DNA from: Anaerolineae bacterium
GTDB lineage: Bacteria; Chloroflexota; Anaerolineae; B4-G1; SLSP01
NCBI GenBank assembly: GCA_003562365.1
Contig: PWVB01000134.1
Location: 1 to 32,993, forward strand
Direction of reading: 5' to 3'
DNA: 32,993 bases
Shown: positions 378 through 3,100 of the stretch, one piece after another
Layout of the letters: each line of letters begins with the position of its first letter
How positions within the stretch are numbered: position 1 is the stretch's first letter
The notes under the pieces: generated by a model
The model's database searches: none
Seen by the model: the letters and a program-made list of their open reading frames with translations, nothing else
What the model was told of the DNA's origin: nothing
Translations under genes and position numbers: made by a program

Positions 378-1427
378 ATGCACGTCAACGCGCTGGAGAC
401 CCCGGTCGTGGTCGTGGACCTCGACCGGATGGAGGCCAACATCGAGCGACTGCAGCGCTATCTGGATGCTCACCACATCGCCAACCGTCCTCACATCAAG
501 ACCCATAAGGTCTCTGAGATCGCTCGGAAGCAGGTAGCAGCGGGCGCGGTAGGGATCACCTGCCAGAAGGTCAGCGAGGCTGAGGTTATGGCTGACGCGG
601 GGATCGAGGATCTCTTCATCCCCTACAACATCCTGGGCGAGGCTAAGCTGCGGCGCCTGATGCAGCTGGCAGCCCGAGTGCCGGTGCAGGTGACCGCCGA
701 TTCGGCCTACGCCATCAAGGGCTATGCGGGCGCCGCCCAGCAGGCTGAGCTGACGCTGCCGGTGTTGGTGGAGTTTGATACCGGCATGCACCGCTGCGGG
801 GTGCCGTCTCCGGCGGAGGCTGCGGCGCTGGCACGCCTGATCGCGCGCTCGGCGGGCCTGGCCTTCAACGGTCTGATGACCTTTCCCCATAATGCCGCCA
901 GCGATGCCTTCGTCCGCGAGGTGCGAGGGTTGCTGGCGGCGGAGGATATCTCCATACCCCACGTGAGCTACGGCGGCACGCCCGGGATGTGGAAGGCACA
1001 CACTCGCACGGAGGTCACCGAGTACCGCGCCGGCACCTACGTCTATGGGGACCGGTCGATCCTCAAGTCTGGCGCGCTGAAGCTGGAACAGATTGCGCTG
1101 CACGTGATCACCACCGTCGTCAGCCGCCCCACGGTGGAGCGCGCCATTCTTGACGGCGGGAGCAAGACCTTTTCCTCGGATCTGGGAGGCCTCGAGGGCC
1201 ACGGCATGATCCTCGAGTATCCGGAGGCCCGCTTCTATGGAATGTCGGAGGAGCACGGACACGTCGATGTCGGTGCCTGTCCGCGTCGCCCGGAGATCGG
1301 CGAGCGGGTCACGGTGATCCCCAACCACGTCTGTCCTGTCAGTAATCTGTTTGACCAGGTAGTGGGGGCGCGGAACGGCAAGGTCGAGGTTGTCTGGCCC
1401 GTCGCGGCGCGTGGGACAGTACAGTAG
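378..1427 (+). CDS. D-serine dehydratase / D-threonine aldolase-like PLP enzyme (alanine racemase-like fold)
   Basis: A 349-aa protein of the DSD1/D-threonine aldolase family (fold-type III PLP barrel plus C-terminal beta domain). It opens with ETPVVVVDLDRMEANI; RPHIKTHK contains the probable PLP lysine, K41. SYGGTPG near residue 195 fits phosphate binding. The C-terminal HVDVG and PNHVCPVSN (His317, Cys319) match the paired His/Cys metal site of eukaryotic-type D-serine dehydratase and D-threonine aldolase. These enzymes cleave D-3-hydroxy amino acids by dehydration or retro-aldol reaction, needing PLP and a divalent metal. The 4-nt gap to ridA implies one transcript. Sequence alone does not separate D-serine dehydratase from D-threonine aldolase; the RidA neighbour favours a 2-aminoacrylate-forming dehydratase. 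Confidence 0.85.
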   Translation: MHVNALETPVVVVDLDRMEANIERLQRYLDAHHIANRPHIKTHKVSEIARKQVAAGAVGITCQKVSEAEVMADAGIEDLFIPYNILGEAKLRRLMQLAARVPVQVTADSAYAIKGYAGAAQQAELTLPVLVEFDTGMHRCGVPSPAEAAALARLIARSAGLAFNGLMTFPHNAASDAFVREVRGLLAAEDISIPHVSYGGTPGMWKAHTRTEVTEYRAGTYVYGDRSILKSGALKLEQIALHVITTVVSRPTVERAILDGGSKTFSSDLGGLEGHGMILEYPEARFYGMSEEHGHVDVGACPRRPEIGERVTVIPNHVCPVSNLFDQVVGARNGKVEVVWPVAARGTVQ

Positions 1428-1432
1428 CCGGC

Positions 1433-2278
1433 TTACACTGGTGGGGGTGCGTCGGGAAGCAGCGCTCGGGAGAAGATGAGATAGCCGGTGTGGGCAACCA
1501 TGCGGTCAAACGGGCGCAGGCGCTGCGGCACGGCCTTATAGGGGCGCAGCAGCAGCTCCTCCACCTCGGTGAAGCCGAAGGGCCCCCGCTCCAGATGGCG
1601 CAGCAGGACGCCCACCTGGTTGACGGTGGGCACCAGGCTGCAGAAGAAGCCGCCGCCGCACAGCGCCGCGTGCGTCTGCTCAAGGTAGAGCCAGGGCTCG
1701 CGGACGTCGAGGATCGCGGCGTCGATGCCTCGCTCGTCAAAGCCTTCCTCAATGTCGCGAACCTGGAAAGTGACGGCGGCGTCGAGCCCTACGCGCGTCA
1801 GGTTCTTCTGTGCCACAGCCTGGATCTCCGGACGCACCTCGTAACTATAGACGTGGCCCGTGGGATGGACCATACGGGCCAACGCCAGCGTCAAGCCGCC
1901 GCTGCCGGTGCCGGCCTCCAGGACCCGGGTGCCAGGGCCGATGTTCATCTTCATCAGCATATAGCCGATTTCCTTAGGGTAGATGATCTGCGTGGCACGG
2001 CGAATGTCGCGAATGAGTTCGTCCAAAGAGGGCGGCAGGACCATATAGGTGTAGCCCAGATGGGTGTCGACCGTCTCTCCCCAACGGCAACCGACCACGG
2101 CATCATGCTCGAGAACCCCGTGATGCGTTTGGTGCTGGATCCCCGGCTGCATTCGCACGATGGCGGTCTTCCGGTCGTTGCCCACCAACAGCACGAGGTC
2201 GCCGGCGGCGACGGTGCTGGTGCTGCTTGCCGGCGCGGGGTCGCGCATCGGATTGTCGTTCGGTTTGGGTGGGTGCAC
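1433..2278 (-). CDS. trmI: tRNA (adenine(58)-N1)-methyltransferase TrmI
   Basis: SAM-dependent methyltransferase of the TRM61/TrmI family, which makes m1A58 in the tRNA T-loop. The N-terminal small beta domain (AAGDLVLLVGNDRK) is followed by YPKEIGYMLMKM and the SAM-binding motif VLEAGTGSGGLT near residue 120, then the variant LDVREPW in the DxPxPW position. The track ORF begins at 2389, but a GTG at 2278 has AAAGGA 7 nt upstream and gives 281 aa, close to the family norm; an ATG at 2248 is the alternative and lacks a visible ribosome-binding site. The longer ORF would overlap the promoter of the divergent c-di-AMP receptor genes. The gene converges on the upstream PLP enzyme with only 5 nt between stops. 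Confidence 0.88.
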   Translation of the reverse strand: MHPPKPNDNPMRDPAPASSTSTVAAGDLVLLVGNDRKTAIVRMQPGIQHQTHHGVLEHDAVVGCRWGETVDTHLGYTYMVLPPSLDELIRDIRRATQIIYPKEIGYMLMKMNIGPGTRVLEAGTGSGGLTLALARMVHPTGHVYSYEVRPEIQAVAQKNLTRVGLDAAVTFQVRDIEEGFDERGIDAAILDVREPWLYLEQTHAALCGGGFFCSLVPTVNQVGVLLRHLERGPFGFTEVEELLLRPYKAVPQRLRPFDRMVAHTGYLIFSRALLPDAPPPV

Positions 2279-2321: not shown

Positions 2322-2350
2322 TTTACAAAACCACGCAAAGGCATTATAAT
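2322..2350 (+). promoter_or_regulatory. Sigma70-type promoter for the tandem PII-like genes
   Basis: TTTACA (2322-2327), a 17-nt spacer and a perfect TATAAT (2345-2350) lie 39 nt before the ATG at 2389, which has GGGGGA as ribosome-binding site. The promoter sits between divergent trmI and the first c-di-AMP receptor-like gene and points toward the latter. It is one of the clearest consensus promoters in the window, implying strong expression by the housekeeping sigma factor. Confidence 0.8.
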
Positions 2351-2388: not shown

Positions 2389-2730
2389 ATGCCTGATGAA
2401 AGCATCGATCGTATGGCCATCACCATTGTCGACGGGGGCCAGTCGCGGGACCTCCTGAAGGCACTCAACGCCCGCCATTTTCCGGTCACGACGCTGGATG
2501 CGGTAGGAGGATTTCTGCATGAGGCGATGGTGACCTTGATGGTTGGCATGTCCGAGGCGCGCTTGCCGCTCTTTTTCACCCTGCTCCGCGAGAAGTGCCC
2601 CAGCCGTACCCGCTACATTCCGATGGGCGTGGAGCTTTCGCTCTCCCCAGGATATCCGATGATGATTGAGGCGCGGGTGGGTGGCGCTACGGTTTTTGTG
2701 CTGCCGGTGGAACGCTTTGTGCAATTATAG
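2389..2730 (+). CDS. PII-like cyclic-di-AMP receptor-family protein, full-length but with degenerate pocket (PstA/DarA-like)
   Basis: A 113-aa protein of the CdAMP_rec family (DUF970, PF06153), the trimeric PII-like c-di-AMP binders PstA/DarA. It retains the long B-loop region (YIPMG followed by EARVGGATVFVLPVERF), which aligns with the corresponding region of Staphylococcus PstA as I recall it. The N-terminal ligand strand is altered: family FRxTKLxxTGGFLRxGNTT becomes FPVTTLDAVGGFLHEAMVT, so the Arg, the second Arg and the Asn of the pocket are gone while GGFL remains. ATG 2389 has a GGGGGA site and a strong promoter. It is followed 12 nt later by a shorter paralogue, so the two are co-transcribed. 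It may be a non-binding or different-ligand subunit. Confidence 0.8.
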   Translation: MPDESIDRMAITIVDGGQSRDLLKALNARHFPVTTLDAVGGFLHEAMVTLMVGMSEARLPLFFTLLREKCPSRTRYIPMGVELSLSPGYPMMIEARVGGATVFVLPVERFVQL

Positions 2731-2742
2731 AGGAGAGCCGAG

Positions 2743-3012
2743 ATGAAATTGGTCGTCGCGATTGTCAAAGACTCTGATGCTATGGACGTCTCAGACGCAC
2801 TGGTGGAAAACGACTTCCGGATGACGCGCATCGCGAGCACCGGCGGGTTCCTACGCCGCGGCAATGTCACGCTGTTGATCGGTCTGGAAGAAGAACAACT
2901 CGAAGCGTGCTTTGCCACGATTCAGGCTGCCTGTCGTCCCCCGCAGAATCCCGAGGAACACAAGGCGACGATCTTCGTACTGCCGGCGGAGGACTTTGTC
3001 CAACTAGGGTGA
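2743..3012 (+). CDS. PII-like cyclic-di-AMP receptor-family protein, short form with intact pocket (PstA/DarA-like)
   Basis: An 89-aa paralogue of the preceding gene. MKLVVAIVKDSDAMDVSDAL and FRMTRIASTGGFLRRGN match the canonical PstA/DarA N-terminal half, including the Arg, Thr, Phe-Leu and Asn used in the c-di-AMP pocket. The segment corresponding to the long B-loop (about 20 residues in PstA, present in the upstream copy) is missing; the chain runs from CRPPQNPEEH directly to ATIFVLPAEDFVQLG. AGGAG lies just before the ATG. It probably forms PII-like trimers and may bind c-di-AMP, sensing potassium or cell-envelope state through an unknown partner. A hairpin terminator follows. Confidence 0.88.
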   Translation: MKLVVAIVKDSDAMDVSDALVENDFRMTRIASTGGFLRRGNVTLLIGLEEEQLEACFATIQAACRPPQNPEEHKATIFVLPAEDFVQLG

Positions 3013-3070
3013 GTTATCGGACTTCCTGCGGTCGATTTCGAATGAGTGCGACCTAGTAGCAATTGACGTC

Positions 3071-3100
3071 AAGGGGGCCAGATCGTGCCCCCTTGTTTGC
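3071..3100 (+). terminator. Intrinsic terminator after the PII-like gene pair
   Basis: AAGGGGGC (3071-3078) pairs perfectly with GCCCCCTT (3087-3094) across an 8-nt loop and is followed by the T-rich GTTTGCTT. It lies 58 nt past the second PII-like stop and 48 nt before the next gene start. The T-tract is interrupted, so termination may be partial and the downstream mutase/meaB genes could still be read through. Confidence 0.65.

Follow-up and report, generated by a model that had tools for sequence, protein, structure and literature searches.

A tandem pair of PstA/DarA paralogues in Chloroflexota as a candidate heteromeric c-di-AMP receptor

The c-di-AMP receptors PstA and DarA are PII-like proteins, and those described so far are homotrimers (PMC4316997, PMC4475381). 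In Staphylococcus aureus PstA, each c-di-AMP ligand is held between two monomers: one supplies a first half-site composed of Arg26, Thr28, Gly47 and Gln108, and the other a second half-site composed of Phe36, Leu37, Asn41 and Phe99 (PMC4316997). Arg26 is dispensable, as Listeria PstA has Gly at this position (PMC4475381). In the current model, the three B-loops of PstA are presented to a partner of three-fold symmetry (PMC12435418), and the binding partners of PstA were still called unknown in 2025 (PMC12802241). More than one PstA gene per genome has been recorded among green non-sulfur bacteria, with three orthologues noted in Sphaerobacter thermophilus and Thermomicrobium roseum in the S. 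aureus PstA report (PMC4316997). A precedent for mixed PII rings is provided by the GlnB/GlnK heterotrimers of Escherichia coli, as cited in PMC5448240.

Here we analysed two adjacent genes of this family in a 32,993-nucleotide window (the whole stretch of DNA examined) from an Anaerolineae bacterium. Gene A (2389–2730, forward strand) encodes a long-loop PstA/DarA paralogue of 113 amino acids, and gene B (2743–3012, forward strand) a short paralogue of 89 amino acids without the B′-loop insert. Both are real open reading frames, as initially annotated, and both exceeded the 27-bit cut-off of PF06153 (A, 77.8 bits; B, 89.1 bits). The nearest solved structures to both proteins were DarA and PstA (4rle, 4rww and 4wk1; A matched DarA 4rle with an E value of 2.7e-14). 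Neither reached the 140-bit cut-off of the NCBIfam DarA equivalog NF058593 (71.0 bits for A, 84.6 bits for B). The Walker-type motif of the classical PII B-loop, TGxxGDGKI, was absent from A and B, and searching with the Pfam P-II profile gave 21.9 bits for B, under the cut-off of 25, and no match for A.

The signals around the two genes were those of a small operon. A sigma-70-like promoter (TTTACA-17-TATAAT, 2322–2350, forward strand) with 11 of 12 consensus matches, against 0.3 expected in shuffled sequences, lies upstream of A and likely drives both genes; a promoter search between A and B gave no match, in line with the single strong shared promoter initially proposed. The genes lie in one frame, separated by a single TAG, and the 12-nt spacer AGGAGAGCCGAG (2731–2742, forward strand) holds a Shine–Dalgarno sequence containing AGGAGAG. 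An intrinsic-terminator-like hairpin (3070–3095, forward strand) closes the unit after B. Given this promoter and hairpin, A–B looks like a two-gene unit.

Alignment to S. aureus PstA revealed what each protein keeps and loses. In A, Arg26 is replaced by Pro and Asn41 by Met, the latter within the T′-loop sequence GGFLHEAM (2506–2529, forward strand; PstA 34–41), which also carries an acidic Glu at position 39. The equivalents of Thr28, GGFL, Gly47, Phe99 and Gln108 are retained, as is a long B′-loop with a GGA hinge (2599–2688, forward strand; GGA at 2680–2688), both hinge glycines being present in all 43 A proteins of the window's lineage. A lacks Asp12, a partner in the Asp12–Arg67 salt bridge that forms upon ligand binding. 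The initial annotation was thus right that A keeps the long B-loop and went too far in stating that A has lost an Arg/Arg/Asn pocket: much of the site remains, and of the residues meant by that label only Arg26, itself dispensable, and Asn41 contact the ligand in S. aureus PstA (PMC4316997, PMC4475381). Its description of B, a pocket without the B-loop segment, agrees with the alignment. Every ligand-contact residue is present in B, with the stretch from R26 to N41 (RMTRIASTGGFLRRGN) at 2818–2865 (forward strand); in the window's lineage R26 was found in 40, T28 in 43 and N41 in 40 of 43 B proteins. The T′-loop motif TKLxxxGGFLxxGNTT occurs in B with three substitutions (Lys29 to Arg, Leu30 to Ile, Thr42 to Val), and is not found with N41 in A (R26P, N41M). 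The loop of B is shortened (2935–2967, forward strand) and lacks both the 94-GGA-96 hinge and Arg67; neither hinge glycine was found in any of 80 scored B proteins. The large B′-loop and GGA hinge are therefore both present in A and both missing from B, and these differences in loop and pocket are kept over the 34 pairs from sampled relatives, the window's included.

The pairing itself is widely conserved. In a sample of 60 relatives, with tandem pairs across the family, the order and beyond, we found 34 tight A–B tandems including that of the window, and all five genomes of the window's genus carry both genes. Genomes of GTDB species were then scanned with a B profile and the best 80 B loci kept, all in Chloroflexota (Anaerolineae, Thermoflexales, Anaerolineales, Longilinea arvoryzae, Brevefilum and others). 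In 79 of these 80, a set biased towards conserved B because it was retrieved by B motifs, a long A gene lies directly upstream, mostly at a gap of 2–20 nt. The exception is locus L160, whose B (738–1001, forward strand) carries Met41 and whose 737 bp of available upstream sequence contain no A. Occurrence of one copy without the other, which the initial annotation had regarded as evidence against partnership, was therefore seen neither in the genus nor in the other 79 loci. Across the class, many genomes hold only a canonical long PstA, and in some families short and long genes are unlinked; genomes of one such family (f37; L196–L203) encode a short B-like protein whose loop (HPPHRATVFV) is slightly longer, from a gene that does not adjoin their canonical PstA. 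Long–short neighbours also occur outside the class (for example, G362, G375 and G382 in the phylum search).

The class survey further yielded 12 natural fusion proteins from 10 genomes in four families, in which a single open frame runs from a long PstA domain at the N terminus through a linker to a short domain at the C terminus; the one fusion tested gave two CdAMP_rec domains in Pfam. On a FastTree phylogeny, weakly resolved and built from few columns, tandem B and fused B domains fell into one clade (SH 87); tandem A made up two others (100 and 88) and fused A a further one (90). Because tandem and fused B group together, loss of the loop looks like one event, and the loop-less domain like a single invention retained beside a long partner. 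Pairing in the genus and in 79 of 80 loci, together with the fusions, makes it very likely that A and B are obligate partners. A different kind of double-domain protein (L209, G147:C82, about 1338–1935, reverse strand) has 199 amino acids and two PF06153 domains, both of the short-loop type.

AlphaFold predicted B alone with a pLDDT of 90.2 and a pTM of 0.80 as a beta-alpha-beta-beta-alpha-beta chain whose best fold matches in the PDB were PstA and DarA, that is, a PII-like ferredoxin fold. The same fold is indicated for A by its sequence and by a low-confidence fusion model. The in-frame A-TAG-B readthrough, modelled as an artificial tandem from 11 alignment rows, reached a pTM of 0.48 and gave no confident docking; an alignment version that included further single-gene rows put A rows against the B half, and we set it aside.

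Next, we asked how the two half-sites decay. Over 81 scored pairs (43 of the window's lineage and 38 of Anaerolineaceae type), residue loss was non-random with respect to the half-sites, although the counts represent non-independent events. In the window's lineage, A kept Thr28 (43 of 43), Gly47 (43) and Gln108 (41), and Asn41 was never kept (Phe36 in 23, Phe99 in 27); B kept nearly all contacts, with Asn41 in 40. Anaerolineaceae-type pairs showed the opposite side of A preserved: among 38 proteins Phe36 was kept in 37, Leu37 in 36, Asn41 in 31 and Phe99 in all, and Gln or His108 in one (Glu in 33), Arg26 in one, Thr28 in 30 and Gly47 in 31. Their B partners retained Arg26, Thr28 and Gly47 in all 38 and Gln or His108 in 37, and Asn41 in 12; a ribose contact might still be possible with Arg, Ser or Gln at this last position of B. 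On loosely resolved trees, parsimony required about five changes of Asn41 in A, three of position 108 in A and nine of Asn41 in B.

We then scored all four types of interface. In the window's lineage, 36 of 42 pairs keep both the interface formed by the first half-site of A with the second of B and that formed by two B subunits. Among the Anaerolineaceae-type pairs, the first half-site of B with the second of A is the sole interface with every checked contact in 17 of 38, and is kept together with the B–B interface in 12 of 38. The idea that every pair preserves N41 in one or other of its two proteins was rejected, as neither protein has it in 10 of 81 pairs (3 of 43 and 7 of 38). Mutual information between opposing A and B half-sites showed no enrichment, with mean ranks of 0.49–0.52. 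In the window's lineage the T′-loops carry opposite mean charges (−1.6 in A, +3.8 in B); with an acidic loop in A and a basic one in B, the contact of the second half-site of A with the first of B would be charge-complementary even without ligand.

A ligand for such a receptor is very probably made in the cell. We searched the genome for a diadenylate cyclase, as initially suggested, and obtained two matches; the copy on contig C9 is CdaA-like with intact DGA and RHR motifs, on which sequence evidence c-di-AMP synthesis is very probable. The genome holds four PF06153 genes: in addition to A and B, contig C55 carries a solitary A-like gene and contig C132 a further family member. A second A-like gene, whose T′-loop is of the GGLLREGM type, occurs in the window's genus without an adjacent B (L003, 1495–1896, reverse strand; L076, L078 and L080). 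The gene on C132 (L004, 1495–1827, reverse strand) encodes a further divergent PF06153 protein (motif FTESRGGMLRQAQ) and lies between atpA and atpG in the F1-ATPase operon. The gene was also found in L072, L074, L075, L077, L079 and L081–L095, and the order atpA–gene–atpG holds in 20 of 21 loci (L084 ends ahead of atpG). A PII-like gene within an ATP synthase operon was unexpected, and we found no mention of one in the open-access literature searched.

Beyond A–B, no gene context was common to all pairs. The TrmI, B12-binding and MeaB neighbours in the window are limited to close relatives. Within the window's wider lineage, 20 loci (L103–L114, L117, L122, L127, L134, L141, L144, L156 and L170) have an MFS transporter reading frame directly after B or overlapping it, making this transporter a candidate target of the receptor. 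A gene for a DUF4013 membrane protein lies downstream of B in 19 loci, mainly of Anaerolineaceae type and mostly at 60–230 nt (L171, 4381–5041, forward strand, and 18 other loci). In the window's genus, no transporter gene follows B and there was no clear orthologue (best identity, 28%).

We propose that A and B, probably transcribed together, may belong as obligate partners to a single c-di-AMP receptor that evolved from a PstA/DarA homotrimer, and that they most likely assemble in mixed rings in which each ligand site is a composite of both proteins. The half containing T28, G47 and Q108 would come from A and that containing F36, L37, N41 and F99 from B in the window's lineage, with the roles swapped in Anaerolineaceae-type pairs. 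Since B has no B-loop, a mixed ring would display one or two signalling loops, not three; fewer loops would match a target that is not three-fold symmetric, for example the transporter whose gene adjoins the pair in many relatives. Mixed rings are favoured above all because a homotrimer that has stopped binding ligand has no reason to keep half a site. Against them, B–B interfaces keep all contacts in the window's lineage, so a B homotrimer could bind alone. The flat mutual information, the lack of confident docking, the pairs with N41 in neither protein, the lone A-like gene of the genus, the B of L160 and the unlinked genes of some families also count against the proposal. The main rival, which we consider the less probable but a serious possibility, accordingly holds that one operon encodes two separate homotrimers, a loop-less c-di-AMP sensor formed by B and a loop protein formed by A that is ligand-independent or differently liganded, cooperating as antagonists or as stacked or tethered rings without mixing. 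The homotrimeric state of known PstA proteins (PMC4316997, PMC4475381) agrees with it, and two tethered rings would be a good match for the fusions, whose pockets are both largely preserved; the fusions fit tethered homotrimers and a mixed ring equally well. Yet two separate homotrimers would give A no reason to keep T28, G47 and Q108 almost without exception while N41 and F36 drift, and would leave neither homomeric interface complete for the checked contacts in the 17 Anaerolineaceae-type pairs noted above.

Two further readings are less probable still. Facultative mixing, with homotrimers and heterotrimers coexisting to tune the response and composite sites non-essential, draws on PII paralogues known to mix (PMC5448240 and references there) and on C-terminal strand residues common to A and B; the strictness of the pairing and the existence of fusions suggest a more obligate tie, and we regard this reading as unlikely. 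Hardly probable at all is a reading in which A, a duplicate in decay or put to another use, has ceased to bind c-di-AMP and stays beside a working receptor B as a relic of tandem duplication: A is indeed the furthest from the family T′-loop motif, but it is conserved across the class with invariant positions (T34, G53, C70, E94, GGA and VE), adjacent to B in all but one of the 80 loci and matched by fused counterparts. Mixed A–B rings with composite sites are, at about even confidence, the best single explanation; the ring, composite binding, loop number and target are all features that we infer. The initial suggestion of a heterotrimer with one sensing and one signalling subunit thus stands as regards partnership, and the sided decay favours its mixed ring; the division of labour was drawn too sharply, since half of the ligand site survives in A. 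Only tentatively, with confidence somewhat short of even, do we extend the proposal to a class-wide obligate heteromeric receptor in Chloroflexota, with mixed PstA rings, composite sites and fewer signalling loops, fused in some families and controlling a co-encoded transporter.

If this is true, mixed PII trimers can arise in evolution from symmetric ones, and the fused forms are ready-made constructs. A receptor whose ligand site and signalling loop are divided between two proteins is a natural experiment on the role of each part, and its position beside transporter genes in relatives points to a specific target that can be tested. The A–B pair is a variant of the PstA/DarA receptor for which we found no earlier description in the open literature; on tandem, heteromeric or fused PstA, the open-access literature yielded nothing beyond the three-orthologue remark. 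That genomes of green non-sulfur bacteria can hold more than one PF06153 gene had already been noticed in S. thermophilus and T. roseum, and the accessible part of that report describes no tandem pairing, loop loss, fusion or complementary half-sites (PMC4316997). The GlnK–AmtB operon resembles the 20 loci with MFS genes in that a PII-type gene adjoins a membrane transporter gene; AmtB, however, is three-fold symmetric and MFS proteins are not, the window's genus lacks an adjacent transporter, and regulation of MFS by A–B is a candidate function. E. coli GlnB and GlnK are likewise two PII paralogues in one trimer, which for A–B is the probable arrangement proposed here. GlnB and GlnK are both complete sensors, bind a different ligand and are not encoded in an obligate long/short tandem. 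Closest of all is PstA/DarA (YaaQ, PF06153), whose fold A–B shares, with the T′-loop motif in B and the long B′-loop with its GGA hinge in A. Known members unite both features in the single-gene subunit of a homotrimer, whereas here they are split between two co-encoded proteins whose half-sites decay on opposite sides.
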